A DNA stretch of 64,000 nt from Myxococcales bacterium 68-20. Lineage in GTDB: Bacteria > Myxococcota_A > Polyangia > Polyangiales > Polyangiaceae. Each line of letters opens with the position of its first letter. Position 1 is the stretch's first letter. Both the position numbers and the translations under genes were made by a program. The notes beneath the pieces were generated by a model. It ran no database searches. It worked only from the letters and a program-made list of their open reading frames with translations, and was not told where the DNA came from. Positions 11,216 through 54,547 of this stretch are shown here, one piece after another. The stretch lies in NCBI GenBank assembly GCA_001899635.1, contig MKVQ01000016.1, positions 155,178-219,177 on the forward strand, read 5' to 3'.

Positions 11216-13522
<2,307 letters not shown>

Positions 13523-13623
13523 CCGTCGATCTTCGTTTGCCGCCTGCCATCGCGTCGACGTCGACCCCGTAGCCGCGAACCAGAGAGCGGAAGAGGCTCG
13601 ACGGTGACAGAGGGAGTCGCAGA

Positions 13624-14199: not shown

Positions 14200-14470
14200 G
14201 GTTCCCTTTCATTGCCGGACGGCGTCGACCGTCCCCGCCTTCACAACCACGACAATCGGGCCCCCACGGGATCGACACGCTCGACGAACTTTTTTTCGGG
14301 GCCCCCTACTGCGCCAACTTCACCTGTCGGTCCGCCGCGAAAGTCCGGTGAACGCGGCCGGCGAGGCATGCAAGCACGGCAATAGGCGAGGATGCCGCCG
14401 GCCCCGAGACGGCTCATCGTCCGGGCGAGCTACGCCTTGCGCGCGCTGGCTCTGGGCGATAGTCGGCGCC

Positions 14471-15112
14471 ATGACCAAGCACCCGCTCACCTCGGAGACG
14501 ATCGAGACGGAGGCGGCGCTCCGGGACCTGATCGGCGAGCCGACCGAGCTCGTGTGCTCGAAGATCAGCGACCGCCTCAACTCGCTGACGCGGAAGTTCA
14601 TCGAGCGGTCGCCGTTCCTCTGTCTCGGCACCGCAGACGAGAACGGAAGCTGCGACGTGAGCCCGCGTGGCGACCCGGCGGGCTTCGTTCGCATCCTCGA
14701 CGACCGGACGCTGCTCATCCCCGAACGCCCGGGCAATCGCATCGCCGACTCGCTGCGGAACATCCTCCGCAACCCCCATGTGGCGTTGCTCTTCGTGATC
14801 CCCGGCGTGTCCGACACCTTTCGCGTCAACGGACGCGCGATACTGACGACCGACCAGGCATTGCTCGCTCCCTGCACGGTCGAGGGCAAGACGCCGAAGC
14901 TCGGGATCCTCGTCGACATCGAGTCCGCGTACACCCACTGCTCGAAGGCGTTCCTCCGCTCGCAGCTCTGGGATCCTGCGCGCTTCGTCGATCGCTCCGA
15001 GCTCCCGACGAGCGGAGCGATTCACCGCGAGCTCGCGGGCGAGGACTTCGACGCCGAGAAGTACGACGCGGAGCGCGCCGCACGGTATGCGCGCCGCGAA
15101 GGCTTCTACTGA
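14471..15112 (+). CDS. FMN-binding split-barrel protein, MSMEG_1061-like
   Basis: A 213-residue pyridoxamine-phosphate-oxidase-fold protein. The start at 14471 (MTKHPLTSET) is chosen because the family N-terminus begins there; the frame is open upstream but not protein-like. Typical barrel sequence is SPFLCLGTADENGSCDVSPRGDPAGFV, read in two parts (SPFLCLGTADENG and CDVSPRGDPAGFV), followed by LLIPERPGNRIADSLRNI and HVALLFVIPGV. The region with CSKAFLRSQLW is usual for this FMN-dependent subfamily. It probably reduces or binds a flavin or F420-like cofactor; substrate unknown. It lies in the block flanked by priA-tail repeats, upstream of the Ser/Thr kinase gene. Confidence 0.85.
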   Translation: MTKHPLTSETIETEAALRDLIGEPTELVCSKISDRLNSLTRKFIERSPFLCLGTADENGSCDVSPRGDPAGFVRILDDRTLLIPERPGNRIADSLRNILRNPHVALLFVIPGVSDTFRVNGRAILTTDQALLAPCTVEGKTPKLGILVDIESAYTHCSKAFLRSQLWDPARFVDRSELPTSGAIHRELAGEDFDAEKYDAERAARYARREGFY

Positions 15113-15137
15113 GCTTGCCGGACCAGAATGGACGGGC

Positions 15138-15172
15138 TCGATCGACGTCGCCCCCGTCGGAGCGCTATAGCC
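15138..15172 (+). repeat. Direct repeat, copy 2: duplicated priA tail
   Basis: Matches 13490-13524 at 33 of 35 bases and still reads SIDVAPVGAL-stop in the corresponding frame, against SIDVDPVGAL-stop in priA. It lies 40 bases upstream of the kinase start at 15213, in non-coding sequence. Confidence 0.85.
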
Positions 15173-15212
15173 TCGGAGAGCGTCCCGCACCGACCAGCCG
15201 ACCGAGACGAGC

Positions 15213-16724
15213 TTGACCTCATCCTCTTCGCCGCCGCCCAACCAGAACGAGAGGGAGCTCAAGGACGGGCGCTACACGCTCCTGCGCCGGCTCGGGGAAG
15301 GCTCGCAGGGTGAGACGTACGAGGCACGGGACAACGGCGCCCATTCGACGAGGCCGCGTCCGCGACCGGAAGCGCTCGTCGATGACTTCCACCGCTACGT
15401 CTCCCGCGCACGAGCCGGGGCGACGACCGACACGCGCGGCGTGGTCGCGATCAAGTGCTTCCGTGTGGGCAAGGCGAAGGCCTGGAAGGACGTCGAGCTC
15501 GCCGAGCGCGAGGCGAGGACGCTCGCGTCGCTCGATCACCCGCGCCTGCCGAAGTACATCGAGCACTTCGAGGAGGACGGCGCGCTCTACCTCGTGATGG
15601 AGAAGATCGAGGGCGAGAGCCTCGCCAGCCTCCGTTCGCGCAAGCAGACGCTCGACGTCACCGAGGTCACTCGGATGCTCGAGGACATCGCCGACGCGCT
15701 CCGGTACCTCCATGGGCGCGCGCCCTTCATCGTCCATCGCGACATCAAGCCCGGGAACGTCATCCGCCGGCCCGACGGGTCCTACGCGCTCGTCGACTTC
15801 GGAGCCGTCCGCGATCGGCTCAAGCCCGCCGGCGGGAGCACCGTCGTCGGGACCTTCGGCTACATGGCTCCGGAGCAGTTCCAGGGACGCGCCTCGCCGA
15901 AGTCGGACGTCTACGGGCTCGGCGCCACCGCGGTCGCCATGCTCACCGGCTGCGAGCCCGAGGAGCTGCCGCACGAAGGCTTGGGCATCGACGTCCCGCG
16001 CGCGTTGCCGAAAGGGACGCCGCCGGGGCTCGTGCGCGCGCTGTCCGCGATGCTCCGGCCCGATCCGGATCGACGGGTGGACTCGGTCGACGAGGCGCTC
16101 GTTTTCCTACGCGCGAAGACGAGGTCCGAGGCTCCGAAGAAGTCCGCCGCATCGGAGGCGCCGCCGAAGCCGCTCACACGCGACGAGAAGCGAGAGCTCC
16201 GGCGTCAGAAGAAGCGCGAGGCTCGCGAAGAGAAGCGCAAGCGCCGCGCTCTCGCGCGCTCGAGACGGCCCCCCTTCGTCCCGCGCTTCTTCGCACAGCT
16301 CGGGCTCTTCATCGCCCTCCTCGCCGTCTGGCTGACGGTGGGCCTCCTCGTCCCGCTCCTTCTCCGGCTCCTCTCACTGGTGTTCGGCGAAGCGCTCCGA
16401 CGCGCAGCGAACGCCTGCGTCCGCGCAGCGAGCCGGAGCCAAGCCGCGCTTGGCCGCGCATCGTCGTGGCTCTCGGGGCACCGCGCGGAGGATTCCGAAC
16501 CGGCACGCGTCCGCGTGGCGAGCGCGCTCGATCGGGTGCGGGCCGTCACCGAGGACGAGGCTCAAGAGCTCGCGATCGCCCAGGCAGAGGCGCGCGGCGA
16601 GGACGCAGACGCGTGGCTCGAAGAGCGGCTCGCGGCCGAGACGGAACGGCTCCGGATGGAGGATGAGCGCGAGCGCCTCCGTCGCCGGTCCACCACGCCT
16701 TCCCACGGGAAGCGCCGCGGCTGA
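15213..16724 (+). CDS. Ser/Thr protein kinase with C-terminal membrane segment
   Basis: A 503-residue Hanks kinase. The glycine loop LGEGSQGETYEA is at about 27-38. An insertion of about 25 residues separates it from the ATP lysine (VAIKCF, Lys at about 81). Catalytic HRDIKPGN starts at about 175 and DFG at about 195; KSDVYGLG and the rest of the C-lobe are intact. A Lys/Arg-rich stretch (about 315-350) precedes a strongly hydrophobic segment (about 355-385, LFIALLAVWLTVGLLVPLLL), then a Glu/Arg-rich tail. The start is TTG at 15213, the only suitable codon before the kinase domain; its ribosome site is weak. No partner is evident. Confidence 0.9.
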   Translation: MTSSSSPPPNQNERELKDGRYTLLRRLGEGSQGETYEARDNGAHSTRPRPRPEALVDDFHRYVSRARAGATTDTRGVVAIKCFRVGKAKAWKDVELAEREARTLASLDHPRLPKYIEHFEEDGALYLVMEKIEGESLASLRSRKQTLDVTEVTRMLEDIADALRYLHGRAPFIVHRDIKPGNVIRRPDGSYALVDFGAVRDRLKPAGGSTVVGTFGYMAPEQFQGRASPKSDVYGLGATAVAMLTGCEPEELPHEGLGIDVPRALPKGTPPGLVRALSAMLRPDPDRRVDSVDEALVFLRAKTRSEAPKKSAASEAPPKPLTRDEKRELRRQKKREAREEKRKRRALARSRRPPFVPRFFAQLGLFIALLAVWLTVGLLVPLLLRLLSLVFGEALRRAANACVRAASRSQAALGRASSWLSGHRAEDSEPARVRVASALDRVRAVTEDEAQELAIAQAEARGEDADAWLEERLAAETERLRMEDERERLRRRSTTPSHGKRRG

Positions 16725-29790: not shown

Positions 29791-31899
29791 TCAGGAGGGG
29801 CGGCGGGACGGCGGCGGGCGGGACGGCGGCTCCGAGATCCGCCCCTCCGGGACCCGACCGAGCGCGCGGGCGCGCGGAGCCAGTGCGTGGATGTCGAGGG
29901 CGAGCCGGATCGAACCGTCGCCGCGGACGATCGCTCCCGCGTACGGACCGATCCCCCAGAGGAGCGGCGAGAGCTGCCGCACGAGCACCTCCTCCGTGAT
30001 ACCGACCGAGTCGACGCCGACGCTGAAGGTCTCGCGTGCAAGCGCGGGCTCGGTTCGATCGAGGCCGTCGAGATCGACCACGAACGCGGGACGCGGGGCG
30101 ACGCGAGGCTCGAGGCACGCCGCGAGGTGCGGGACACGCTCGACCTCCGGGTCGATGTCGTCGTTGCGACGGACGCGCCTCGCGTTCGCGGCCGGGATCG
30201 CGAGCTCCACGTCGTCCGCCGTGACCCAGAGCACCGTCGCGAGGCCGCTCTCGATCGGGACGTCGACCCGCGCCTCGAACCCGAGCCCGTGACGGCTGGA
30301 GAGACGGATCGAGCCGCCGAGCCGCTGCACGCTCGCAAGCGTGATGTCGAGGCCGATACCACGGCCTGCGAGGAGATCGGGGCTCTGTTCGCGCGTGGAG
30401 AAGCCGGGGAGGAAGAGAAGCTCGAGGAGCGTTTGATCGTCGGCGGCCTCGGCCAGGACCTCGGTCACGACGCCGGTCTCGACCGCACGCGCGCGCACCG
30501 CCGAGACATCGACCCCGGCGCCGTCGTCGGCGATGCCGATCGATAGCCGGTTGCCGGTGCGGCTCGCGCTGAACGTCAGCGTCGCCTCGCGAGGCTTGCC
30601 CAGCGCCTGGCGTGCATCCGGGCTCTCGATCCCGTGGGCGATCGCATTGCGTGCAAGCTGCAAGCAAGGCTCCATCAACGCCTCGACGAGGCGTCGGTCC
30701 ACCGGCTCGTCGGCTCCCTGTGTCCGCACCGCGACGACGCGACCGGTACGACGTGCCTCGGCATACACGGAGGCCGCGAGGCGGGAGAACATCCCCCTGA
30801 CCGGCGTCTGGCGCATCGTCGACAGGATCTTCTTTGCCGCCCCCGCCTCGTCCTTCAGCGCCTGATCGCTGACCTTGAGGCGATCGGCGACCGTATCGAG
30901 CTCGTCACCGAGCTGCGCGAGCGATTGCGACGCACGCTCGATCCTCCGCAGCGCCGCCGCCGGCGCTCCCCACGGCCGCGGAGGCCCGATCAGGCGAAGC
31001 GCCTCCGCGAGCTCGGCGCGCAACCGCCGAACCTGACGTGCATGCTCGATCGCTCCGACCACCCGTGCGGCGACGCGCTCGCGCGCGACCGCAATCCCGG
31101 ACGCATGATCGAGGAGGCGATCGACGGACTGCGCAGAGACTCGGATCGTGCCGTCGCCTTCTCGCCGCGCGTCGTCCTCCGGCCGTGTGCTCGGGCGGAG
31201 CCTCGTCCGCGGGCGCGCGGGTACACCACGGAGCGTCGCGAGAGCGGCCTCGGGATCGTCGAGCAACGTGCCGAGCACGGCGCGCCATCCCGCGACCTCT
31301 TCGAGCGCAGCCGTCGCCGGGTGCGGCGCACCGCTGGTGACGACGCGAAGACGCTCCTCGAGCCCGTGGCAGAACCACGCCATCGGCTCGTCTCCGACCG
31401 CGCTCGCTGCGCCCTTCATCGTGTGGACGTGACGGTAGACGTCGGCAGCAGCCTCCTCCGGCTGCGCGTCGGTCGCGGTGAGCGCGTCGTCGATCCGCGC
31501 GAGCCGATCGGTGACCTCGGCGATGTACTGCGTGCGGACGAGCGGATCGAGCGCGCCCGCGACCAGATCCTGCGGGGGCACGGGCCACGCTCCGCTCGCC
31601 GCGCGCTCACCTGCACCGAGACGCTGAATCGCCCGGCGCACCGTCGTCGCGGCCTCGGCGAGGGCCGTATCGTCGCCCTCGCGGAGCCTCCGCTCGAGCC
31701 GCAACATCGCAGCCGCGAGCTCGGGCTCGCCGGCGAGCCCCGCCGAGCCTTTCAGCGCATGGACCGTACGGCGCGCCGACTCGAGCGTCGCCTCGCCGGT
31801 CTGCCCCTCGACGAGCTCGACGAGCGCGTCCAACGCGACCAGATGGCGCTCGAGCTCGAGGATCAAGATCCGCGTGAGCTCGGGATCGCGCGCCGACAC
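29791..31899 (-). CDS. CheA-type histidine kinase with two HPt domains
   Basis: A 702-residue CheA-like protein. There are two HPt domains: phospho-His in VHALKGSAG at about 47 and in VHTMKGAAS at about 160. A dimerisation region precedes the HATPase domain (about 390-545), with N-box NAIAHGIESPDAR, G1 box GIADDGAGVDV, FSTRE and GRGIGLDI. A CheW-like domain follows (about 550-675, LATVLWVTADDVELAIPAANAR). A Pro/Arg/Ser tail ends the protein. The order and length fit CheA with a duplicated HPt. The start is five bases after the stop of the MCP gene, so the two are tightly coupled. No CheY-only protein is nearby; the output may be the receiver-DUF4388 protein. Confidence 0.92.
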   Translation of the reverse strand: MSARDPELTRILILELERHLVALDALVELVEGQTGEATLESARRTVHALKGSAGLAGEPELAAAMLRLERRLREGDDTALAEAATTVRRAIQRLGAGERAASGAWPVPPQDLVAGALDPLVRTQYIAEVTDRLARIDDALTATDAQPEEAAADVYRHVHTMKGAASAVGDEPMAWFCHGLEERLRVVTSGAPHPATAALEEVAGWRAVLGTLLDDPEAALATLRGVPARPRTRLRPSTRPEDDARREGDGTIRVSAQSVDRLLDHASGIAVARERVAARVVGAIEHARQVRRLRAELAEALRLIGPPRPWGAPAAALRRIERASQSLAQLGDELDTVADRLKVSDQALKDEAGAAKKILSTMRQTPVRGMFSRLAASVYAEARRTGRVVAVRTQGADEPVDRRLVEALMEPCLQLARNAIAHGIESPDARQALGKPREATLTFSASRTGNRLSIGIADDGAGVDVSAVRARAVETGVVTEVLAEAADDQTLLELLFLPGFSTREQSPDLLAGRGIGLDITLASVQRLGGSIRLSSRHGLGFEARVDVPIESGLATVLWVTADDVELAIPAANARRVRRNDDIDPEVERVPHLAACLEPRVAPRPAFVVDLDGLDRTEPALARETFSVGVDSVGITEEVLVRQLSPLLWGIGPYAGAIVRGDGSIRLALDIHALAPRARALGRVPEGRISEPPSRPPPSRRPS

Positions 31900-31904
31900 G
31901 ATGC

Positions 31905-32687
31905 TCAGCTCTCCGGTTCGTCTTCGCCTTCGAGGAGGCGCAGTAGAGGCTCGAGCACGGGCCGGAGCGCAGCGACGACGAGCGTCTGAGGCGCCCGTCC
32001 GCTCAGCGCATCGAGCGCCCCGACGAGCGCACGTGCGTGCTCGGTCGCAGCGGAGATCGCTCGTGCAGTCTCGGGATCGCTCCCGGTCGTCTTCTGGAGG
32101 CGATCGCCGATCTCCGAGAGAGCGCGCTCCGCATCAGCCGATGCCCCGCCCACGCGCGCCGCCTCCTGCGCGACCTCGGCGGAGGCCTCTCGGGCGCGAT
32201 CGAGGCTCGAGTGCACCTGCGTGAGCTCGCTGCCAAGCTCGCCCAGCGCTGCGCCGAGCTCCCGACACGCCTCCGACCCGCGCGTGGCCTGCGCGCGGAT
32301 CTCCTCCGACACGAGGGCGAGCGCTTGTCCCGGCCCCTCGCCGAGCCGTGCACCTTCGAGACCTGCATTCAGCGCCACGAGCTCGAGGCGCGCAAACGTC
32401 TCCTTGAGGCGCGAGAAACCTCCGGACAGGTCGCCCGAGCGTGTCGACACACCACGGGCGCGGTCGGCGAGCGCGTCCACAACCCCGCGCTGCTTCGCGA
32501 GGTGGGACGCGATTCGCTGCGCGGCCTCGCCCGTCTCCCGGACCGCCGCCGACGCGCGCTGATGCAATGCCCAGAGCGCGCTCTCCTCGGCCGCCCGTCC
32601 CGCCGCGCCCGCCCCCGTCGTGTCGCGGGCGCCACGGCGCAGCAGGCGGAAGAGTCGACGCTTCGGCTTTTCTCCAGAGCCCGCCAT
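31905..32687 (-). CDS. Soluble methyl-accepting chemotaxis-like signalling protein
   Basis: A 260-residue protein with an MCP hairpin-tip sequence (VALNAGLEGARLGEG, then ALVSEEIRAQATR), matching the conserved NASIEAARAGE and ADEIRKLAE region. It has no transmembrane segment and no recognisable ligand domain, so it is a cytoplasmic signalling stub. The N-terminal 25 residues are basic. The start at 32687 is preferred over 32768. It lies 9 bases after a duplicate of the cheW 3' end with its stop codon, so 32687 is where this gene would start in an uninterrupted cheW-mcp-cheA operon. No Glu/Gln methylation pair is obvious. Confidence 0.85.
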   Translation of the reverse strand: MAGSGEKPKRRLFRLLRRGARDTTGAGAAGRAAEESALWALHQRASAAVRETGEAAQRIASHLAKQRGVVDALADRARGVSTRSGDLSGGFSRLKETFARLELVALNAGLEGARLGEGPGQALALVSEEIRAQATRGSEACRELGAALGELGSELTQVHSSLDRAREASAEVAQEAARVGGASADAERALSEIGDRLQKTTGSDPETARAISAATEHARALVGALDALSGRAPQTLVVAALRPVLEPLLRLLEGEDEPES

Positions 32688-32696
32688 GGCGACCAG

Positions 32697-32727
32697 GAAG
32701 GCTACACCGCCCAGGGCCCTTCGCGCA
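32697..32727 (-). repeat. Direct repeat: duplicated cheW tail before the MCP gene
   Basis: Matches 33687-33717 at 28 of 31 positions in the same orientation, 990 bases apart. It reads MREGPWAV-stop where cheW reads VREGRWAV-stop. Confidence 0.88.
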
Positions 32728-32786
32728 TCCGGCTTCGCTTGCAAGACGCTCGCGATGAACCGTGGCATCTTGTCCCTAAGCTCGAC

Positions 32787-33593
32787 ATGTTCGACGAGGT
32801 CCTGGTGCTCGGGGCGGGGTACGCCGGCATGGCCGTGCTTGCGCTCGCGCGCGGGCGCGGCCTCGCGACGAAGGCCGTCGTCCGCAGCGCAGCTCGCGCC
32901 GAAGCGCTACGGGACCACGCAGTCGTCGTAGCGCCGGTGTTCGACGCCGCGCTCGCGACGCTCGCCGGCCCATCCACCCACGTCGTCGTCACCTTCCCGC
33001 CTGACGGAGCGACCGACGCGCGTGTCGCGCTTCGCGCCGGCGCAATCACCTACGTCTCGACCACCGGGGTCTACGGCGACCGGCGGGGCATCGTGAACGA
33101 CCAGACGCCGGTCACCGAGACGCCGAGCGCATCCGCAACGCTCCGCCTCGAGGCGGAGGACGTCTGGCGCCGGCGAGGGGCGACGGTGCTGAGATGCCCG
33201 GCGATCTACGGCAAAGACCGCGGTCTCCACGTTCGAGTCGTCAGCGGTCGACACAAGATCCCCGGGGACGGGAGCGGGTACGTGTCGAGAATCCACGTCG
33301 ACGATCTCGCGGCACTCATCCTTGCCGCGCCGCAGGCTCCAGGGGAGACCTTCGTGGTCGGCGACGAGAAACCCGCACGCCATGCCGACGTGGTCCGCTG
33401 GATCTGCACTGCGTACGGAGCTCCGATGCCCCCTTCCGTACCGCTCTCGGAGGTTCATGAGACCCTCCGCGGCGACCGGCAGGTCGATGCGTCGCGCGCG
33501 CTCCGCGTCCTCGGCGTGACGCTCCGCCATCCGAGCTACGAAGACGGCTACGCCCCAACGGCTGACGTCGAGCCAGCGACGCCTCGATCGTAG
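32787..33593 (+). CDS. NAD-dependent epimerase/dehydratase-like protein
   Basis: A 268-residue extended-SDR protein. The start at 32787 (MFDEVLVLGAGYAGMAV) gives the Rossmann motif GAGYAG. YVSTTGVYGDRRG is the strand typical of YeeZ-type sugar-nucleotide-epimerase-like proteins. LRCPAIYGKDRGLHVRV and SRIHVDDLAALILAA complete the family pattern. The usual YxxxK is not obvious, so catalysis is uncertain. It lies on the opposite strand to the chemosensory operon it interrupts, between two copies of the cheW 3' end, and its start is 100 bases from the MCP start. It is probably a separate insertion rather than part of chemosensing. Confidence 0.82.
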   Translation: MFDEVLVLGAGYAGMAVLALARGRGLATKAVVRSAARAEALRDHAVVVAPVFDAALATLAGPSTHVVVTFPPDGATDARVALRAGAITYVSTTGVYGDRRGIVNDQTPVTETPSASATLRLEAEDVWRRRGATVLRCPAIYGKDRGLHVRVVSGRHKIPGDGSGYVSRIHVDDLAALILAAPQAPGETFVVGDEKPARHADVVRWICTAYGAPMPPSVPLSEVHETLRGDRQVDASRALRVLGVTLRHPSYEDGYAPTADVEPATPRS

Positions 33594-33649
33594 CGAGCGC
33601 GCGACCCGGACGGCGGCATCGACGTGGACCGGCGCCCGCTCGCGCTCCT

Positions 33650-33683
33650 CACCTCCGCGGGTGGTTGGGCCGCAAGCCCCAAG
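33650..33683 (+). repeat. REP-like intergenic repeat, copy B
   Basis: CACCTCCGCGGGTGG followed by TTGGGCC-GCAA-GCCCCAA. It shares order and spacing with the copy at 54608-54639 and lies between the epimerase stop and the cheW stop, inside the inserted block. Confidence 0.7.
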
Positions 33684-33686
33684 CTC

Positions 33687-33717
33687 GAGGGCTACACCGC
33701 CCAGCGGCCTTCGCGCA
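33687..33717 (-). repeat. Direct repeat: cheW 3' end
   Basis: The last codons of cheW (VREGRWAV), its TAG stop and the following few bases. The partner copy is at 32697-32727. Confidence 0.88.
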
Positions 33718-34129
33718 CCTTCGCGATCGCCGCAGCGACGTCGAACGTGCGAGCGGTCTCCCCGCCGACGTTCACCTCTCCCACGACTTCACCTGCCTCG
33801 AAGCGGCCGGTCGCGACGACGTCGATCCCGACGAGGCCCACGCTCTCACCGACGACGGCGCAGACGAGCATCGCCCCGGTCGGCTCCCTCACCTCGCCGG
33901 ATGGCTCCTCGAGCACGTCGAGAACGTCGAGCGCGTCGACCACGGGGATCATGTTGCCCTCGAACAGCGCGACACCTCGAAGCGCGTGCGGTCCGCCAGG
34001 GACGCGCGCCATCTCGGGGATCGGGCTGACCTTCATCGCGATCGAAGCGGGCAGGAAGTAGAGCTCTCCGGCGACACGAAACGCGACACCGCCGTGCTGC
34101 GGCTTCGCCGCGCTCGCCTCGTCGTTCAT
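33692..34129 (-). CDS. CheW-like coupling protein
   Basis: A 145-residue CheW-domain protein. VAFRVAGELYFLPASIAMKVSPIPEMARVPGGP (in part GELYFLPASIAMKV and PIPEMARVPGGP), LRGVALFEGNMIPVVDA and GLVGIDVVATGRFE are the expected beta-barrel segments. It links receptor and CheA. It starts three bases after the stop of the receiver-DUF4388 gene. Its 3' end is duplicated in front of the MCP gene. Start ATG 34129. Confidence 0.9.
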   Translation of the reverse strand: MNDEASAAKPQHGGVAFRVAGELYFLPASIAMKVSPIPEMARVPGGPHALRGVALFEGNMIPVVDALDVLDVLEEPSGEVREPTGAMLVCAVVGESVGLVGIDVVATGRFEAGEVVGEVNVGGETARTFDVAAAIAKVREGRWAV

Positions 34130-34132: not shown

Positions 34133-35818
34133 TCAGCCCGCCCGACGCCGGAGCGCGCGCGCCTCGAGGAACTGGACGAGGATCCGGCACGCATCGAAGC
34201 TCGAGAGGTTGCTCGCCGCGACGACCGCGCGCACGGTGCGCTCGCCGTCGACCGCGTCGAGAACGGCCTTCTCCCGGGGCGGCAAGGAGGCGATGTCGAG
34301 CTTGCCGAACGCAGCGTCGTCGCGGAGGAGCACGGCGTCGAAGCTGCCGAGCGTGCGTTCGAGCACCCGCCACTCGTCGACGCGCCGGAATCCCTCCATC
34401 ACGACGGACGCCACGGGCAGCCCGAGCTTCGCGTTCTCTGCGAGCTCGCTCGGCGGCTCGCGGCGGAGCTCGAAGCGCCCCGCAGGCCACCGCAGCACCT
34501 CGTACAGGAGCTCGCTCGACTGGCGCGTGAGCGCGGAGCGGAGCTGGGACTCCACGATCTTGCCGGCGGCGAGGAGCGCCATCCCGAGCGGCCGCGGCTT
34601 CTGCGTGGCAGCCGCGAGGGCGACCATGATCTCCCCTCCCGGCATGGTCACCATCGCATGGTCATCGCGGCGCTCGGGCTCCGCCTCTGGGATGGCGGAA
34701 GGACGGCCCCACGGCAACGTGTCGGGCGGCGCCGACTCCCTCATCTGGATGGTCGAGCGCGGGGCCTCGGAGTCGTCCTCCTTGAGAAGGAGCCGCGGCT
34801 CGGAGCTCACGAGGAGCTCTCTTTCACTGCCCCTCTCGGTCGCCCCCTGCCCTTCGGCGCCGCGTCCACCGGGCTCGAGAATCGTCCGTCGCACGGTCGG
34901 AGCGAGGGAGACCCGCTGGGTGAACTCGTCAATCTCCGTCGGGGTGAGGACGCCTTCCTCGATGAAGAAGCGGCCGAGACGGAACTCGTCGCCGGCGCCG
35001 GAGGCCTCCACGAGATCGATCGCGCCTCCGCGGAAGGTCGTCCGGACCTCTGCGTTCCCGCTCGTGCAGACGAGGACACCCGTCTGGTTCTCCGTCTGGA
35101 GGAGCTGCAGGATCGCGCCGATCGGAACGGCGCCGAGGTCGCCGGAGAGCAGCGCGCCATTCCCATCCCGACGGTCGCTGACGATGGCCTCCATCATCTC
35201 GAGGATCGCCTCGTTGGTGAGGCTCTCGGCCAGCACGCCTGCGAGATCGGGCGACGAGACGACCTCGGGGCGGCCTGCAATCGTACGCGCCGCGATGCTG
35301 GCGAGCTTCTCGGCGACGATCTGAGCCAGATGCGTGCGCTTGGTCTCGTATTCGATCGCGGCCTGATCGTGGGGCTGAGCGGCGCCCGTGACGTCGTCGC
35401 AATCGACGTCCGGAAGGCGCGTCGAGCTCGCTCGCGTCGTGTTCACCTTGCGAAGAGCGTTCTCGATGACCGCGACGAGCGCCTGAGCGTCGAAGGGCTT
35501 CGTGATGGCGTCGAGCGCCCCGGTCTGCTGGACGAACTGATCGCGGATGCGATCAGCCTTGGCGCTCATGAGGACGACGGGCAGGGTCGCGAGCTCCGCG
35601 TTCTCCCGCAGCGCACGGCAGAACTGATAGCCGTTCATCCGAGGCATCACGAAGTCGACCAGCACGAGGTCTGCCTTCACCTCGCCGCTCGAGAGCGCGT
35701 CGTACGCATCCTGCCCGTCGGACGCGACCTTGGGGTCGTATCCGCTCCGCTCGAGGATCGTCGAGACCACCGTGCGGATCGTCGGGCTGTCGTCGACTAC
35801 GAGGATGCGCGTCGCCAT
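34133..35818 (-). CDS. Response regulator receiver with DUF4388 domain
   Basis: A 561-residue protein. The CheY-like receiver (about 1-120) has the acidic pair in LVVDDSPT, phospho-acceptor Asp in LVLVDFVMPRMNG, Ser/Thr in VLMSAK and Lys in ITKPFD, so it should be phosphorylatable. Two PATAN/DUF4388-type regions follow: SGDLGAVPIGAILQLLQTEN (about 215-290), and a C-terminal part after about 405 with SSELLYEVLRWPAGRFEL. The start at 35818 (MATRILVVDD) is required by the receiver. It heads the minus-strand chemosensory operon and is the likely output of the CheA. DUF4388 proteins are common in myxobacteria; their molecular target is not established. Confidence 0.92.
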   Translation of the reverse strand: MATRILVVDDSPTIRTVVSTILERSGYDPKVASDGQDAYDALSSGEVKADLVLVDFVMPRMNGYQFCRALRENAELATLPVVLMSAKADRIRDQFVQQTGALDAITKPFDAQALVAVIENALRKVNTTRASSTRLPDVDCDDVTGAAQPHDQAAIEYETKRTHLAQIVAEKLASIAARTIAGRPEVVSSPDLAGVLAESLTNEAILEMMEAIVSDRRDGNGALLSGDLGAVPIGAILQLLQTENQTGVLVCTSGNAEVRTTFRGGAIDLVEASGAGDEFRLGRFFIEEGVLTPTEIDEFTQRVSLAPTVRRTILEPGGRGAEGQGATERGSERELLVSSEPRLLLKEDDSEAPRSTIQMRESAPPDTLPWGRPSAIPEAEPERRDDHAMVTMPGGEIMVALAAATQKPRPLGMALLAAGKIVESQLRSALTRQSSELLYEVLRWPAGRFELRREPPSELAENAKLGLPVASVVMEGFRRVDEWRVLERTLGSFDAVLLRDDAAFGKLDIASLPPREKAVLDAVDGERTVRAVVAASNLSSFDACRILVQFLEARALRRRAG

Positions 35819-37296: not shown

Positions 37297-37438
37297 CCGA
37301 CTCGGACGGCACCGACGGCCCGCGTGATGGCGAGCTGACGGGCTTGCCGCCAGCGTGGGGCGCAGCGCGCGCTCGTGAAGCTCGGCCTCGGGTAGGTCGA
37401 GTTGGTCGCTCCTCCATCGAGGTGATACGCAGGGACCC

Positions 37439-38203
37439 TTGCGTATCGCCGTTCACGGATCTGCTCGTGTCGATGCGCTCGCGCCTTGGCCTCCACTCCT
37501 CGCGACGGCGGGACCAGGCGGGGAGAGCGCGACGCACGCACACCACGCGATGCATATCGTCATCGCGCGGTCGGGGAGTCTTCGTGTCCGCGAAGGGAAA
37601 GGGCGCGCACGGAAAGCCGCGGGGATCCTCTCAGCTCCGGACGTTGCCCATGCGATCGACGCTCGAGGCACCGACGTCGTGCTCGTCTTCGTCGATCCGG
37701 AGAGCGACGCAGGGGAGCGACTTCGGCGCGAGCTGAGCGGCGTGCGTCTGCTGTCCGACGACGAGCGTACGAACATCCTCGCCGACCTCGCGCTCGATGC
37801 GTCCCCCGAAGAGGTGATGCGGTGGGCCGCGCGTGCCGTTCCTCGTTTCGCCGGAATGACCGACGGCCGGGCGAAGATGCATCCACGCGTTCGGAAGCTC
37901 CTTCGCGAGCTTCGCTCCCTGCCTCCCGACACGGACACCTCACTCGCTTCACTGGCCGCTCGCGCGGGGCTCTCCGAAGGCCGGCTGGTGCACGTCTTCC
38001 GTGAGTCGCTCGGCATTCCGCTTCGGCCCTATCTCTTGTGGCTCAAGGTGCAGCGTGCGGTCGTCGCCTTCACGACGGCTGCGTCGCTGACGCAGGCCGC
38101 GCACGACGCCGGCTTCTCCGATGCCGCGCACATGAGCCGGACGTTTCGCCGGATGTTCGGCGTGCCCGCCTCGGAGCTGAAACGAAGCATCCCGCACGCC
38201 TGA
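37439..38203 (+). CDS. AraC-family regulator with N-terminal cupin
   Basis: A 254-residue regulator with TTG start at 37439. The N-terminus has cupin features (THAHHAMHIVIARSGSLRVREG, in part HAHHAMHIVIA), possibly for ligand or metal binding. The C-terminal HTH_18 domain is complete: TSLASLAARAGLSEGRLVHVFRESLGIPLRPYLLWLKVQRAV (in part LAARAGLSEGRLVHVF) and QAAHDAGFSDAAHMSRTFRRMFGV (in part DAGFSDAAHMSRTF). It is on the same strand as the deaminase gene and the Mpo1-like gene, but the gap of about 140 bases suggests its own promoter. The regulated genes are unknown; the Mpo1-like gene downstream is a candidate. Confidence 0.9.
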   Translation: MRIAVHGSARVDALAPWPPLLATAGPGGESATHAHHAMHIVIARSGSLRVREGKGRARKAAGILSAPDVAHAIDARGTDVVLVFVDPESDAGERLRRELSGVRLLSDDERTNILADLALDASPEEVMRWAARAVPRFAGMTDGRAKMHPRVRKLLRELRSLPPDTDTSLASLAARAGLSEGRLVHVFRESLGIPLRPYLLWLKVQRAVVAFTTAASLTQAAHDAGFSDAAHMSRTFRRMFGVPASELKRSIPHA

Positions 38204-38301
38204 GCCGGGTAGTGCGCGGCTCGCTGGCGCCGACGATGGCCTCGGCACACCGCAGCCAGTTCGTACAAGCCGCCTCACCGAGGGCGCGACATGCTCCACG
38301 C

Positions 38302-38670
38302 ATGCTGTCTCCGGAGCTCTTCTCCTGGCAACGCCGCGGATACGGCGGCGCTCACGCCCACCGAACGAACCTGCTCGTCCACGCGCTCACCGTGCCCGTC
38401 TTCGTTTCTGGCATCGCCCTCGAAGCGCTCGCGATCGTGTCCCTCGACTGGCGGGCCGCGCTCGCAGGCGCCCTGGCGATGACGCTGGCGATGCTCGCCC
38501 AGGGACGAGGGCATCGACTCGAAGCCCGAGCGCCGGCGCCGTTTCGCTCGCCACTCGACGTGGTCGCGCGGATCTTCGCCGAACAGCTCGTCACGTTCCC
38601 GCGCTTCGTGCTGTCCGGCGACTTCGCGCGCGCCTGGCGAGAGAGCCGTCGACCGCGCTGCGACGGCTGA
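38302..38670 (+). CDS. Mpo1-like (DUF962/YGL010w-type) membrane protein
   Basis: A 122-residue protein. AHAHRTNLLVHALTVPVFVSGIA (in part HRTNLLVHALTVPVF), GRGHRLEARAPAPF and ARIFAEQLVTFPRFVLSGDFARAW (in part EQLVTFPRFVLSG) correspond to the His-rich motifs of DUF962/Mpo1 proteins. Yeast Mpo1 is an Fe(II)-dependent dioxygenase acting on 2-hydroxy fatty acids in the ER. Two hydrophobic segments lie at about 32-52 and 58-75. The start at 38302 is chosen as the first with family-like sequence; 38236 is an in-frame alternative. Confidence 0.8.
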   Translation: MLSPELFSWQRRGYGGAHAHRTNLLVHALTVPVFVSGIALEALAIVSLDWRAALAGALAMTLAMLAQGRGHRLEARAPAPFRSPLDVVARIFAEQLVTFPRFVLSGDFARAWRESRRPRCDG

Positions 38671-39551
38671 ATCCCGCCCCTGTGTCTTCGGGTGGGCCTG
38701 AGCTCGCGAGCGCCGAGGCGAGGTTTACGATCGCCTCCTGCACGAGCGCGAGGCGCTGGCTGACGCAGACGAGCGAGAGCTTCGGCAGCGCGATCGATGG
38801 AGCTTCACTTGCGGACGAGGGGCGGAGCCGCGAGTTGCTTGGCCTCGGCTTCGCCTCCGGCGGCAGTGGTCTCATTCCGATGACGGTCAACGTGCTTTCG
38901 AGCTCGTTCGGAGCGAAGGCGCCGACCGTCGCGCATGGCAGGGCGAGCGGGATAAGCCATCGCCTGCCTCGCGACCGAGCGCCGGTGAGCTCGCGAAGAG
39001 ATCGGAGCCTGTGGGCGGTCGAGGACTCCGGGACTCGACCCCGAGGAGGTACCAACGCGCTCGACGCGGCCAGGTCGAAGAGCCGCGCTGAGGGAACGCA
39101 TGATCCCGAAGGCGCGGCCCCGCAGGTCACGATGACGTGACCGATAGCTCGCGTCTGGAGAGAGAGCGGCTCTCGAGCCAATCGTGCGCAGCCGTTTGTT
39201 CCATGTCCGAGGGCGATTTCGAATTCCTCACTTGCGGACGCTCAGGTCTCGGATGACGCGACCTCGAACACCAAACCGACGGACGTGACCGATAGGTTGC
39301 CGCTCGAGAGAGAGCGACCGCTCGAGCCAATCGCGCGGCGGCCGTTCGTTCCATGACCGAGGACGATTTCGGATTCCGCGCTTGACGTCCATCCCGACGG
39401 CGGCCGGCGCGAGAGCGCGGTCGGTCGCTTCGACTGGGGCGTGCTGGCAGAGAGTCGCGTTCTCCGTGGCGATCGCGCGCGGAAGACCTCGCGACGTGAT
39501 CGGAGCGTCGAACGCCCTCGGACGGGCCCTTCCCGTGAGCCGCGAAACTGC
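38671..39551. other. Region without a clear gene; possible decayed ORF and tandem duplication
   Basis: About 880 bases. 38682-39140 (plus) and 38591-39181 (minus) are both open, and third-position GC is high in the shared wobble positions up to about 38800, then falls. The minus frame contains WLIPLALPCATVGAFAPNELE, split here as WLIPLALPCATVGAF and APNELESTLTVIGM, and QRLALVQEAIVNLASALA, which look protein-like. No family is recognised. 39120-39387 is a tandem duplication. Confidence 0.4.
39120..39387. repeat. Imperfect tandem duplication before the HNH gene
   Basis: GACGTGACCGATAG begins at 39134 and again at 39282 (148-base offset). It is followed in both by GAGAGAGAGCG, CTCGAGCCAATCG (CTCGAGCCAATCG and CTCGAGCCAATCG), CGTTTGTTCCATG against CGTTCGTTCCATG, and CGAGGGCGATTTCG against CGAGGACGATTTCG. 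The copies extend for about 105 bases each. Confidence 0.75.
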
Positions 39552-41150
39552 ATGTTAGAAGCGGTCATGGACAAGCTGGGGGATCTGTCCGACGAGGATC
39601 TGCTCACGCGTCTGCGCGGGCACGTCGGCAAGGGAAACGTCTGGTGCGCGGAGCTCATCGCGTACCTCGTCGAGGTCGACGAGCGGCGGCTCGATCGCGT
39701 TCATGCTTGCTCGTCGATGTGGGACTTCTGCACGCGCAAGCTCGGGATGAGCGAGGGCGAGGCTCATCGTCGGATCGCGGCGGCTCGCACAGTGCGGCGC
39801 TTCCCCCAGGTGCTCGGGCTCATCGAGCGGGGCGAGATTCACCTCTGTGCTCTCTATGTGCTGCGGAAACACCTCACGAGCGACAACGTCGACGAGCTGC
39901 TCCGCGAAGCGTCCGGCAAGAGCACGCGAGAGGTCGAGAAGATGGTGGCGGCACGCTTTCCGCAACCGGACGTGCCGACGTGCGTCGAGCCCGTCGCGAC
40001 GCAAGCGTCCTTGCCGCCGATATGGCCGGTGTCCGTCGCGACGCCCTCCAATGGAGTGCCTGCGTGGTCTCTATCGCTGGCGGCGTCGCCCGCACCTGGA
40101 CCTCGGCCGAGGGTCGAGCCGCTCTCGGCGGCGCGGTACCGCGTCGAGCTCACCGTGAGCGCCACGACGAAGGAGAAGATCGACCGCATCAAGGACCTGA
40201 TGCGCCATCGCAACCCGACCGGCGATCTGGAGACCATCCTCGACGCGTCGCTCGCGCTGCTGCTCGCCCAGCTGGAGAAGGAGCGGCTCGGCAAGACGCC
40301 TCGCCCAGGTGGCAGGAGGCGCAAACCTGCCGAGGAGACGAACGCGCGCGCCGCGGCCGCCTCAGCGCGTGCGGAGATCACGACGCGTGCTCCGATCGCG
40401 CCCGCTCGGGTGGAGGCGACCGCGGACGATCCGACCACGCCCGTGCAGTCAGAGACGAGTGCGCGCGAACCGGACGGACTCGTACCGGAAACGACGGCGG
40501 GCGGCCCGGACATCCCGATGCGCTCGGAGGCCAGCACGCAGCATCCGGACATCCCGATGCGCTCGGAAGCCAGGGCGCAGGAGCCAGACGCACACGCTCA
40601 CGCGGACGCGCCCAGCGGCCCCCCGGGAGTATCGTCGCGCGAGCCCGCGAATGCGGAGTCGAGCACGGCGGAGCCGGCCGAGGTCGAGGCTCTAGTGCGC
40701 GCCGCAGTTGCGGCCGCGGTGCAAGCGACGCGGCCTGCAGCGTCCACGTCTACAACGAAGGCGTCGCGAACGGCATCTCGGTATGTCCCGGCAGAGCTGC
40801 GGCGAGTGATCTTCGCGCGAGACGGCGAGCAGTGCACCTACGTGGGCCCAGACGGAGATCGCTGCCCCGCGCGAGGGTTCCTAGAGCTGGATCAGATCCA
40901 TCCGAAGGCGCACGGAGGGCCGGAGACGGCAGCCAACCTGCGCGTGAGGTGCAGGGCGCACAACGCGCTCTACGCCGAGCAGGTGTTCGGCCGCGCGCAC
41001 GTCGCGGGCCGTATGGACTTTCGACGCCGAAAGTGCGCGCCGCCGACACCGGCCTCCTTCGAGACCGCCGCCCGAGGTCTGCGGTCCATGGGCTTTCGCG
41101 AGCCCGAAGCGCATCGAGCGATCGAGCCGCTCGCGACTAGCGCGTCATGA
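39552..41150 (+). CDS. HNH endonuclease-family protein with altered active site
   Basis: A 532-residue protein of the myxobacterial HNH group. The N-terminal 240 residues are helical (DLLTRLRGHV, CTRKLGMSEGEAHRRIAAAR, EIHLCALYVL), as in DUF222-like partners. A long Ala/Thr/Pro/Glu region (about 255-405) contains the repeat HPDIPMRSEA or PDIPMRSEA twice. The HNH domain is C-terminal: CTYVGPDGDRC zinc-type pair, LELDQIHPKAHGG, and LRVRCRAHNALYAE. The first His of the usual HH or DH motif is replaced, giving DQIHP. Start ATG 39552, or 39567 with AGAAG upstream. The terminal motif FREPEAHRAIEPLA is repeated in a remnant at 41560-41720. Function unknown; likely a nuclease relative. Confidence 0.82.
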   Translation: MLEAVMDKLGDLSDEDLLTRLRGHVGKGNVWCAELIAYLVEVDERRLDRVHACSSMWDFCTRKLGMSEGEAHRRIAAARTVRRFPQVLGLIERGEIHLCALYVLRKHLTSDNVDELLREASGKSTREVEKMVAARFPQPDVPTCVEPVATQASLPPIWPVSVATPSNGVPAWSLSLAASPAPGPRPRVEPLSAARYRVELTVSATTKEKIDRIKDLMRHRNPTGDLETILDASLALLLAQLEKERLGKTPRPGGRRRKPAEETNARAAAASARAEITTRAPIAPARVEATADDPTTPVQSETSAREPDGLVPETTAGGPDIPMRSEASTQHPDIPMRSEARAQEPDAHAHADAPSGPPGVSSREPANAESSTAEPAEVEALVRAAVAAAVQATRPAASTSTTKASRTASRYVPAELRRVIFARDGEQCTYVGPDGDRCPARGFLELDQIHPKAHGGPETAANLRVRCRAHNALYAEQVFGRAHVAGRMDFRRRKCAPPTPASFETAARGLRSMGFREPEAHRAIEPLATSAS

Positions 41151-41559
41151 AAGCCACCCCCGTCGAGACGATCCTCCGCGAGGCGCAGCTCGTTGTCACG
41201 TAGACCGCGCCACCGATCACCGAGGACCAGCTCAACCGCATCACACGATGCGCGCTGCTGCTCCGTCGCGGCGCGCTGGCAATCCTCGGACGTCGTCGAT
41301 CGAGGACCTAGACCACCGAACGCGACGACGTCCGCACACGGCTCGACGCCAATGAGTTTTGGGGCGCCCTCGAGCCACCACACAACGTCGTTCCGGCCGA
41401 ACGAGATACGACGATCGCTGCTGGCATGCTCGCCGCCACCCAATCCGGATGGCCCACCTGGGATCGTTGCCGACCCAATGCGCAATCCCGCGCCTGTTCA
41501 GCGGAGCGCTGAATGGCATCGCGGCCGACCATCGGCGAATCGGAGGCCCCCGACGTCGG

Positions 41560-41720
41560 GCCGCTACGACAGGCTCGTCCTCGCGCTCGAGGAGCTCCCT
41601 CCCGACGGCCCGTGGACCTCTCGGCTCATCAGCGCGGGCCGTGTTTTTAGCGAGCCCGAAACCCGTCGAGCCCTCGAGCCCCTCGCGACGAAGCGCGACA
41701 TGCAAGCTGCTACGCCGTGA
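41560..41720 (+). pseudogene. Remnant of an HNH-gene 3' end
   Basis: The sequence ending FSEPETRRALEPLATKRD (41640-41705) matches FREPEAHRAIEPLATS at the 3' end of the HNH gene (41090-41140) at about three quarters of bases. The preceding region (YDRLVLALEELPPDG) has no HNH domain in frame, so only the tail of a paralogue is left. Confidence 0.5.
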
Positions 41721-41836
41721 AGGTACGAGCTTCACCAGGGGCGATGGGGCTCCATTCGCCTCCGGCGAGCACGCGGACAGCAGTCGACTCCCCGACCTCT
41801 TCGCAGACGATGCCCTGGTCGAGATAGGCCGCGCGA

Positions 41837-41861
41837 CGTCGACCGGGACAACCGGTCGACG
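41837..41861 (-). terminator. Hairpin downstream of FrzS-like gene
   Basis: CGTCGACCGG and CCGGTCGACG pair perfectly around a 5-base loop, followed in the minus direction by no T run. A second GGCGC/GCGCC hairpin lies at 41866-41880. Termination is inferred from position only. Confidence 0.4.
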
Positions 41862-41882
41862 CCTTGGCGCTGGAGGCGCCGG

Positions 41883-44534
41883 CTAGAGGCCAGCGCGGGC
41901 TTCGGTCTCTTCGATCTGGGAGAGGGCGACCGCGAGGGCGTCCTTCGCGCGCTCGAGCGAGGCCTTGTCCGCCTCGATCTTCGTGCTCGCCTTGTCGAGT
42001 GCGCTCGACTTGGAGGAGAGGACCACGCGCGTCTCGTCGAGCGACTGCTTCGCCGAAGACAGGTCCGCCTCGAGCACGACGCGGCGATCGCGCTCGCTGC
42101 CCAGGTCCTTCTCGAGGCCGGTCTTCGCCTCCTGCAGCGACGCGACCTGGGACTCGAGCTCCGACGTCTTCGACTCGAGCTGCGCGATCGACTGCTCGCG
42201 CTCGGCGAGGGTCGACTTCGTGGTCTCGAGCTCGCCGGTGAGCTCCGCGATGCGTGCGTCGGCCGCCTCCTTGTGGGCCTGCGCCGACGCACCGATCTCC
42301 GCGATGCGCTGCGCGGTCTCTTCCTTCGTCGCAGCGAGCGCGCTTGCGGCCTCTTCCTGTGCCGCCGCGAGCGCCGCCTGGGACGCCTCCTTGACCGACG
42401 CGATCTCCTGGCGAGCCTCTTCACGGAGGGCCTCCAGCTCCGCGCTTGCCTTCGCCTCGAGCTCGGCGAGCTTCGTATCGCGATCGGTCTCCGCCGCGGC
42501 GACCTTCGCGTCGCGGTCCGCGGTGACCTCGGCGACCACCGCATCGCGGTCCGCAGAGACCTCGGCGACCTTCGCATCGCGGTCCGCGGTGACCTCGGCG
42601 ACCTTCGCGTCGCGTTCGGCCGTGACCTCGGTCACCTTCGCGTCGCGTTCGGCCGTGACCTCGGCGATGCGAGCGTCTCGCTCGGACTCGGCGCGCTGCT
42701 TCGTCTCGGCGAGGGCGTTGTCGTGGTGGAGCTGGGTCTCCGTCTTCTCGTCGGCGTGCTTCTTCTGGAGCGCCTCGACGACGCTCTCGTGCTCCGATCG
42801 CGTGCTCGCGAGCGCTTCCTGATGCGCGCGCTGGAGCTCGTCGACCTTCTGCGAAGCCTCTTCCTTCAGCTGCGCTTCCTGCGCGGCGAGGGCCTGCGCC
42901 TTCGCCTCGTCGGCTGCGTTCTTCGCAGCTTCGAGCGCGGCGGCCTTCTCGCTCGCCGCCGCCTCGAGCTCGTTCACGCGACGCTCTTCGGCCTCCGCGA
43001 GCGCCTTCTCCCGCGCCTCGCGCTCCGCGGCAACGGCCTGCTCCCGCGCCTCGCGCTCCGCGGCGACGGCCTGCTCCTTCGCCTGACGCTCCGCAGCGAG
43101 GGCCTGCTCCTTCGCCTCGCGCTCCGCGGCGACGGCCTGCTCCTTCGCCTCGCGCTCCGCGGTGACGGCCTGCTCCTTCGCCTCGCGCTCCGCGGTGAGC
43201 GCGGCCTCGTGCTCGGTCTGGAGCGCCGAGACGAGCTCGGCTTGCTCCGCCGTGAACGCGGCCTTCTCCTTCGCGAAGGTCTCATCTCGCTGCGCGAGGT
43301 CGGCGGCGTGCGCGTCCTTCAGCGTCGCCAGCTCGGTCGCGCGGGCTTCGGCCTCCTGCTCGGCGCGCGCGGCGCGGCGCTTGAAGTCCTCGCCGGCCTT
43401 CTTCGCCTGCTCCTTGTCCGCCTGGAGCGCGTCGGCCTTCTCCTTCGCGTCGGCGAGCTCGCGCTCGGTCGCGATCACCTTGTCGTCGAGATCGTGCTTC
43501 TCCCGCTCGAGCGCGATCGAGCGCTCCCGGATGTCGACGATCTCCTTGTCCTTCTTCGAGAGTCCTTCCCTGAAGGAGAGGATCTCCTTGTCCTTCTTGT
43601 TCAGCGCCTCGCGCAGATCGAGGAACTCGCGACTCGAGACGCCGCCGGTCTTGCCGGCAGAGGCCTGCGCGAGCCGCGTCTTGAGGTCCTCGTTCTCGCG
43701 CGTCAGCCGGCTGATCTCCTCGGGATCCGCGGTGCCTCCGGCGCTCGCGGCCTCCTTTGCCTCCCGCGCTTCCTCGCTCGCGTCGGCAGCGGCCTTGCGA
43801 GCGCTCTCCGCGTCGCTCTGCGCCGCCGCGAGGCGCTCCTCCAGATCGCGGATCCGTGCCTCGGCGGCACTGACCGCGGCCTCGAGCTCATCCGTGCGTC
43901 CGTCGACGGCCGCGGGCTGAGGTCGCTGGCTCCGGCGCGCCTCCACCACCGGCGGCTCGGAGCCGGGTGTGAATGCTGCGTCGAGCGACACGGCGCCGTT
44001 GCCGTTCGCCTCGTGAGCGTGCTCCTCGGGCGGCACCGACATCCGCGGGGGCGGCGGGGCCTTCGACTGCATCTCCTCGATGACGATCTCATCGTCCTCG
44101 AGCGATTCCATGTCGAGCGACTCGGGCGGCGCGCTCGCGGGTGCCGGCGGCGCGGCGCTCCCGAGGGAGACGAACGGCTCGATGCGCGCGAGGAGGTCGT
44201 TCCAGGCGATCGGCTTGTGGACGTAGTCCTCGGCGCGGGTCCGCAGCTTGCGATGCTGCTCGAACGTCTCGTCGCTCGACTCGCTCGACATGATGATGAG
44301 CGGGACGTCCTTGAGCGCCGGATCCTTCTTCAGCTTGTTGCAGACGCTGAAGCCGTTCATCCGCGGCAGCTCGATCGAGAGCAGGATCAGATCCGGACGG
44401 CCGGTCGACGCCTGCTGGAGGCCCGTATTGCCGTCATCGACGACGTTGACGTTGCAACCGAGTTTCTGGAGCTCGGCTCGGAGCTCGCCTGCGAAGGTGG
44501 CGTCGCTCTCGAACACGAGGACTTTCTGGGACAT
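41883..44534 (-). CDS. FrzS-like pseudo-receiver with long coiled coil
   Basis: An 883-residue protein. The N-terminal receiver-like domain (about 1-120) resembles Myxococcus FrzS: VLVFESDATFAGELRAEL, LILLSIELPRMNGF and EQHRKLRTRAEDYVHKPI. The phospho-acceptor Asp is replaced by Ser (LLSIELP), so it cannot be phosphorylated at that site. A Pro-rich linker (about 125-220) leads to about 660 residues of coiled coil. Two runs of 11-residue repeats are visible: AEREAKEQAV-type near codons 445-515 (about 43000-43200 in DNA) and EVTAERDAKV-type near codons 620-690 (about 42470-42690). FrzS acts at the leading pole in type-IV-pilus motility. The start at 44534 (MSQKVLVFES) fits the receiver. hisIE lies 35 bases upstream on the same strand. 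Confidence 0.87.
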   Translation of the reverse strand: MSQKVLVFESDATFAGELRAELQKLGCNVNVVDDGNTGLQQASTGRPDLILLSIELPRMNGFSVCNKLKKDPALKDVPLIIMSSESSDETFEQHRKLRTRAEDYVHKPIAWNDLLARIEPFVSLGSAAPPAPASAPPESLDMESLEDDEIVIEEMQSKAPPPPRMSVPPEEHAHEANGNGAVSLDAAFTPGSEPPVVEARRSQRPQPAAVDGRTDELEAAVSAAEARIRDLEERLAAAQSDAESARKAAADASEEAREAKEAASAGGTADPEEISRLTRENEDLKTRLAQASAGKTGGVSSREFLDLREALNKKDKEILSFREGLSKKDKEIVDIRERSIALEREKHDLDDKVIATERELADAKEKADALQADKEQAKKAGEDFKRRAARAEQEAEARATELATLKDAHAADLAQRDETFAKEKAAFTAEQAELVSALQTEHEAALTAEREAKEQAVTAEREAKEQAVAAEREAKEQALAAERQAKEQAVAAEREAREQAVAAEREAREKALAEAEERRVNELEAAASEKAAALEAAKNAADEAKAQALAAQEAQLKEEASQKVDELQRAHQEALASTRSEHESVVEALQKKHADEKTETQLHHDNALAETKQRAESERDARIAEVTAERDAKVTEVTAERDAKVAEVTADRDAKVAEVSADRDAVVAEVTADRDAKVAAAETDRDTKLAELEAKASAELEALREEARQEIASVKEASQAALAAAQEEAASALAATKEETAQRIAEIGASAQAHKEAADARIAELTGELETTKSTLAEREQSIAQLESKTSELESQVASLQEAKTGLEKDLGSERDRRVVLEADLSSAKQSLDETRVVLSSKSSALDKASTKIEADKASLERAKDALAVALSQIEETEARAGL

Positions 44535-54503: not shown

Positions 54504-54547
54504 GATTCCGGCGCATCATGGCACACCGGCCACTCGAGGTCCTCTCG

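Follow-up and report, generated by a model that had tools for sequence, protein, structure and literature searches.

An insertion of about 0.95 kb separates cheW from the MCP gene (mcp) in the chemotaxis locus of Myxococcales bacterium 68-20 and is bordered on both sides by a copy of the junction that it entered. Insertion with duplication of the junction was found to recur in this genome (11.9 Mb in 52 contigs). The best explanation, which we favour with moderate confidence, is a repair-type insertion that duplicated the junction, the duplicate being kept for the junction's two jobs, and that has been recurrent in the genome. The chemotaxis locus was studied within a 64,000-nucleotide stretch of contig MKVQ01000016.1, referred to here as the window, and positions are those of the window unless a contig or locus is named.

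Gene calls and domain matches bore out the original prediction of receiver, cheW, MCP and cheA genes in that order on the minus strand, with a plus-strand epimerase gene between cheW and mcp. The receiver gene, which also matched DUF4388 (34133-35797, minus strand; domain matches), lies upstream of the cheW-like gene (33692-34129, minus strand; gene call and domain match). On the other side of the interruption are the MCP signalling-domain gene (31905-32687, minus strand), recognised by its domain and seen from comparison with relatives to have lost its adjacency to cheW, and a CheA-like gene with Hpt and HATPase domains (29791-31899, minus strand; domain matches). The ATG at 32687 assigned to mcp was correctly placed; the reading frame is open further upstream, to an ATG at 32768. 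The inserted gene (32787-33593, plus strand) encodes a protein of 268 aa. The gene is SDR-like, and the name epimerase proved weak, with a Pfam Epimerase match of 19.2 bits just below the cut-off of 20.9 bits.

The direct repeat previously read at 32697-32727 and 33687-33717 was recovered by alignment as 31 nt with 28 identities, and the two tails do read MREGPWAV-stop and VREGRWAV-stop. The first copy (33687-33717, minus strand) comprises the last cheW codons and the stop codon, and similarity to the relative G006 stretches it to 33684. The second copy (32697-32727, minus strand) lies beside mcp and leads into the native cheW-mcp junction; G006 has the same arrangement (tagccttc....tcgccATG). 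The inserted DNA between the copies measures 959 nt (32728-33686); aligned to G006, it comes to 953 nt (32731-33683). The flanking repeat scored 23.5, compared with 15.0 or less in 30 shuffles of its own flanks. When the 11.9-Mb genome was searched with a degenerate 28-nt pattern allowing up to 3 mismatches, only the two known places matched and no third copy was found; the reversed pattern, used as a control, gave 0 matches. Given the score and the lack of a third genomic copy, the repeat is not due to chance.

We compared the junction with those of the 12 genus genomes, own included, of which 11 had a CheW match; the match in G002 was short and partial, with no mcp beside it. In eight of the nine same-genus relatives with a chemotaxis locus, mcp directly follows cheW. 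The comparison with such relatives, which the original prediction had named as a test, came out in its favour: the two nearest, G005 and G006, hold a single copy of the junction stretch. BLASTN alignments from the two sides of the insert overlapped at this empty site by 37 bp in G006 and by 31 bp in G005, indicating an insertion of about 953 bp with a target duplication of 31 or 37 bp. The claim that about 960 bases had entered at the 3' end of cheW, with its last codons present on both sides, was thus confirmed by the distance between the repeats, by alignment and by the single junction in relatives. The chemotaxis locus (case 1) is a well-shown insertion with duplication, which left the genes on both sides intact. 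The ninth relative, G009, carries a different 3.4-kb insert between cheW and mcp without duplication (best repeat score 9.5), which rules out the notion that every insertion at the cheW-mcp junction needs one. Adjoining the chemotaxis locus is a variable region, a 4.6-kb block (37297-41893) unlike the content of G005 and G006 at the same place and showing no BLASTN overlap against either genome.

The inserted block had been described as an epimerase cassette, a word that we do not retain. Of 108 genomes of the family, the own genome among them, 68 had epimerase matches. Thirty other epimerase loci scored 14.5 or less as flanking repeats, compared with 23.5 here, and the gene was therefore rejected as a travelling cassette; one of the 30 (L029) scored 0.5 above its own shuffles. 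No chemotaxis genes were found beside the other epimerase locus in any of 29 loci compared. Rough ORF clustering of 15 loci from 14 genomes found epimerase neighbours common to both genomes in some other genera and to two copies within G010; in the own genus, the same clustering found no immediate neighbour common to loci of different genomes.

The window holds a second junction with the same structure (case 2), on which the original prediction was silent. Here the duplicated stretch is the 3' end of priA (11216-13522, plus strand; PriA_C and PriA_3primeBD domains). By repeat comparison, the first copy (13490-13524, plus strand) is the priA 3' end with its stop codon, and the second (15138-15172, plus strand) is the native priA-kinase junction, with TAGCCT at 15168-15173 as in relatives; the two are identical at 33 of 35 nt. 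The inserted 1.6 kb (13525-15137), between the two copies, carries a polyketide-cyclase/SRPBCC gene (13624-14199, minus strand) and a PPOX-type flavoprotein gene (14471-15112, plus strand), both named by family match. Downstream is a Ser/Thr kinase-like gene (15213-16724, plus strand; domain/family match). In G006 and G005, priA adjoins the kinase and the alignments overlap by 38 and 37 bp, respectively; in the other nine relatives the kinase was not seen beside priA within 1.5 kb, or lay further off. Inspection by eye showed part of the priA tail for a third time at about 13553-13576, which would fit repeated copying during repair.

TANNNT-type boxes beside start codons have been reported for leaderless transcripts in other bacteria. 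Over 2.055 Mb of the present genome, such boxes peaked 12-18 nt before start codons; among the surveyed genes, 153 of 1318 had TANNNT in positions -18 to -9, compared with 40 of 1318 on the reverse strand. The peak suggests that many transcripts are leaderless or have short leaders. Upstream of mcp, TANNNT was present at -12 to -17 in all ten genus genomes having the locus, own included, and in 11 of the 12 sources judged among 22, the other 10 being without a recognisable MCP start and not judged. The putative -10 box of mcp in the window is TAGCCT (32699-32704, minus strand), with its first base at -17 in the mcp-side copy, and in G000, G005 and G006 the box begins at the cheW stop codon. 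The mcp of G009, the relative with the 3.4-kb insert, retains TAGCCT at -14. As mcp appears to have a promoter of its own, it need not have relied on transcription from cheW.

The two copies of each junction were then compared for coding and for the box. In case 1, a cheW codon is altered (Arg to Pro) in the mcp-side copy, which kept TAGCCT; the cheW-side copy, with its coding unchanged, reads TAGCCC at the box. Similarly, the kinase-side copy of case 2 kept CTATAGCCT and has a changed priA codon (Asp to Ala), and the priA-side copy kept the coding and reads CTGTAGCCG at the box position. The downstream copies of both cases thus keep TAGCCT, and the upstream copies read TAGCCC or TAGCCG. As the last base of the case 2 box falls just outside the duplication, the box may have been lost through the edge of the insert; since it also lies 45 nt before the called kinase start, this box is less certain than that of mcp. 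Comparison of the copies supports a dual role for the cheW-mcp junction, as the end of cheW and as putative mcp promoter, and a later division of labour between the two.

We surveyed 2.055 Mb (17%) of the genome for duplicated gene ends. Genes were called with a purpose-written codon model, and the last 45 nt + 12 nt of each gene were compared with the region from 72 nt to 8 kb downstream. Requiring a score of at least 20 and a second copy in intergenic DNA, we obtained hits for 9 of 1580 gene ends, compared with 1 of 1580 segments taken 150 nt inside genes and 1 of 1580 taken 300 nt inside; the excess of duplicated 3' ends anticipated by the original prediction was therefore present in this sample. 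Gene starts gave 3 of 1578 by the same criteria, and random pairing between contigs gave 0-1 of 1580 in each of five runs. A mismatched-pair control gave 2-4 of about 1578 at a score of at least 20; since its best score came from a full-length match, it probably included adjacent genes, and the pairing between contigs was used in its place. With the intergenic condition lifted, there were hits for 11 of 1580 gene ends, 2 of 1580 (150 nt) and 8 of 1580 (300 nt) internal segments, and 5 gene starts, which places the 300-nt control near the gene ends. The in-gene controls are biased because selection removes insertions inside genes.

Two of the nine gene-end hits were close tandem copies (74 and 85 nt apart) and not events. 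The remaining seven ends correspond to five events, and two gene-start hits to a sixth; one place (C4 190317) was left out as a repeat-rich protein, and the internal hit C4 287743 was retained as a control count. With limits chosen after the data were seen (score of at least 22, copies more than 300 bp apart, intergenic second copy), 7 of 1580 ends compared with 1 of 3160 internal segments (Fisher p=0.0026), and the event-wise count was 5 vs 1 (Fisher p=0.018). When case 5 (below) was left out, the values were p=0.0068 for 6 ends and p=0.045 for 4 events. On C43 of the own genome (14002-14298), a degenerate copy of a gene 3' end lies 85 nt downstream of the original, perhaps a frayed tandem duplication. 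Loci of relatives totalling about 575 kb, partly overlapping and mostly with short flanks, gave hits for 0 of 414 gene ends, and named loci totalling 595 kb, some from the same relatives, gave 1 of 432. In another deltaproteobacterial MAG, the 3' end of a gene recurs without mismatch over 45 nt, 386 nt downstream of that gene (L246:15710-16185, JACRCQ010000077.1).

The genes of the four further cases were named by Pfam and NCBIfam. Case 3 (C16) is a 206-nt duplication at a convergent metallophosphoesterase/VanY-type peptidase pair, and case 4 (C5) a 46-nt duplication at a convergent HAD phosphatase/sulfatase pair. The alignments overlapped in four of eight relatives with both flanks of case 3 in one locus (64-185 bp) and in three of nine for case 4 (34-51 bp); in both cases, half or more of the relatives showed no overlap. 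G005 has an insert without a long repeat at the case 3 gene pair, and the case 3 junction carries other inserts in G005 and G006 (L166, L165); this junction may be an insertion hot spot. Case 6 (C4) is a 170-nt duplication across the starts of a divergent kinase/sigma-54 regulator pair, supported by the gene spacing of a single relative: in G003 the two genes are neighbours 134 nt apart, and about 147 nt would be expected. Case 5 (C4) has a 124-nt duplication of the 3' end of anthranilate synthase component I. We set this case apart, as its far side was not syntenic in nine relatives and its insert contains a broken Y2/ISCR-type transposase, and it may be element-borne. Judged by the sequences of relatives, at least four events besides case 1 are supported in the genome, with a sixth candidate unconfirmed.

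A single crossover of the Campbell type, in which a circle carrying a piece of the junction and foreign DNA recombines with the chromosome and leaves a flanking direct repeat, would yield exactly such a structure with a repeat of any length. The copies differ at 3 of 31 and 2 of 35 bases in cases 1 and 2, as a copy imported from a relative might. However, this route needs a donor circle with a new chimeric joint each time, and 31-35 bp, the length of the repeats in these two cases, is short for homologous recombination. In addition, both copies have bases in common that are unlike those of both near relatives, one in case 1 and three in case 2, two of the latter being at or beyond the edge of the duplication. 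Few as they are, these shared bases favour copying within this lineage, and we regard Campbell-type integration as an unlikely source of the duplications.

Over the six cases, the duplications measured 31, 35-41, 46, 124, 170 and 206 nt, and the inserts, of 0.85 to 6.5 kb, had a different gene content each time. Compared with its flanks, the insert was lower in G+C by 3.0 to 6.3 points in each of cases 2-5, and in cases 1 and 6 the two differed by no more than 1 point. The longest exact inverted match between the 60-nt ends of an insert was 4-6 nt in the six cases, with only exact matches considered. No word longer than 10 nt was common to insert ends (66 pairs), and none longer than 9 nt to the duplicated units of the six cases. 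Scans of the eight called genes in cases 1-4 and 6, and of ten more ORFs in cases 3, 4 and 6, returned no match to a transposase family. Case 5 contains broken pieces of a Y2/IS91-ISCR-type transposase at L225:13399-14471 (C4 353399-354471), in ORFs beyond the called genes (Y2_Tnp, E=1.8e-18; ISCR clade Ia, E=6.5e-26, 90.9 bits vs a cut-off of 925). For case 1, the statement that no usual insertion sequence is present agrees with these results, as no transposase family and no exact inverted ends longer than 6 nt were found.

The inserts could be transposons that have decayed, or elements lacking a transposase, with long target duplications as in the IS1202 group; they could also be products of one-ended capture of the IS91/ISCR type, to which the transposase pieces of case 5 would belong. 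We know of no target duplication made by IS91/ISCR elements. Members of the IS1202 group are described as duplicating 16-28 bp of target and as possessing both a transposase and inverted ends (PMC10132070); they resemble the present cases in that inserted DNA lies between unusually long direct copies of the target. In contrast to that description, the five cases other than case 5 had no transposase family match and no exact inverted ends beyond 6 nt, and the duplications, at 31-206 nt, do not have the constant length of transposon targets. Transposition is thus a very unlikely explanation for the group.

Phages and islands integrate at gene 3' ends by means of an integrase, as e14 does in icd. 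The present inserts resemble such elements in having a gene 3' end on both sides with the reading frame kept, and five of the six cases are at gene 3' ends that were left intact, as would follow from site-specific integration between attL and attR with the integrase since lost or acting in trans. Unlike those elements, the inserts are small and the targets and lengths differ each time. The starts of two genes, not a 3' end, are the target in case 6; the repeat of case 1 occurs at no other place in the genome; and the duplicated units have no exact word longer than 9 nt in common as a core site. No integrase or recombinase over the curated cut-off was found among the scanned inserted proteins; a single Arm-DNA-bind_3 match, in case 5, was below cut-off. 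We consider site-specific integration highly improbable.

The REP-like element predicted inside the case 1 block is real. It lies at the cheW-side end of the insert (33650-33683, plus strand) and is a member of a family whose core, GGTGGTTGGGGCGCGAGCCCCAAG, has 124 matches in the genome at up to 3 mismatches, including window positions 33660-33683 and 54620-54641. G005 has 2 matches, G006 has 1 and the nine other genus genomes have 0. Some of the REP-like elements have a longer composite repeat (hairpin GAGGGGTTTCACCCCTCGAG ... TCGTCCAA ... TTGGACGGCTCTTCA) at their flanks, at 54540-54660 in the window, in L077 and L083, and at C5 372167/395809. REP-like elements occurred in two of the six inserts, where length would predict 0.19 (P=0.015) and intergenic length 0.5, and none was found in the case 2 insert with up to 5 mismatches. 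The Y1 (RAYT-type) transposase family PF01797 had no match in the own genome and was matched in 5 of 14 control genomes. Mobilisation in which the REP-like element took part would suit both its position, ending within a few bases of the case 1 duplication, and the amplification of the family here, but with no Y1 transposase and weak enrichment in inserts we rejected REP-driven movement as the least probable of the readings.

Apart from case 5, the cases combine unrelated inserts, flanking duplications of variable length and no element ends, as repair would leave, and we class the five supported cases as repair-type insertions. Inserts unrelated to one another, with duplications of many lengths, suggest that staggered breaks were repaired and DNA was captured in the process, or that templates were switched, and we infer a repair route of this kind. 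For case 1, the repair-type explanation would have about 0.95 kb with one intact epimerase-like gene entering the compact cheW-mcp junction of an ancestor, probably after its split from the closest relatives sampled, with duplication of 31-37 bp of junction sequence around the insert. Most likely, a break with long staggered ends would have been repaired by end joining: filling in of the protruding strands would duplicate the target, and a third piece of DNA would be captured between. Alternatively, template switching during repair synthesis could leave the same scar. Two Ku genes over cut-off are present in the genome. The duplicate would have been tolerated and kept because the stretch codes for the end of CheW and carries the putative mcp promoter (-10 box TAGCCT), each copy afterwards retaining one job. 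Duplications of 170 and 206 nt call for unusually long overhangs, which counts against this explanation, and the REP-like element right at the end of the case 1 insert is unaccounted for by it.

End joining as a route for intake of foreign DNA is reportedly a theme of work by Dupuy in 2019, the title of which names bacterial NHEJ and the acquisition of heterologous DNA. A search of the open-licence literature with a few word combinations returned nothing on a duplicated-junction pattern in bacteria, which is weak evidence of absence. In human and mouse cells, tandem duplications are described as arising when complementary 3' protruding ends at a break are filled in and then joined (PMC8355091). 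The likeness to the present cases is the direct duplication of the break site from protruding ends; the events described in that source are seemingly without captured DNA, whereas here the setting is bacterial and genes lie between the copies.

Case 1 and four supported events with unrelated inserts make this a recurrent way for genes to enter tight junctions in the genome. More tentatively, insertion of this transposase-free, duplication-coupled type may be filtered by two-job junctions, where an insertion would survive only if it copied the junction and the copies would then divide the jobs, leaving a datable record of gene gain that can be read from sequence alone. To our knowledge, the entry of single genes into tightly packed operons without mobile-element machinery is poorly documented. 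Here it has left a legible scar, with coding falling to one copy of the junction and promoter function to the other. Should the pattern extend over the whole genome, such gains could be listed and dated, and the idea that genes are captured through end-joining repair could be tested directly.
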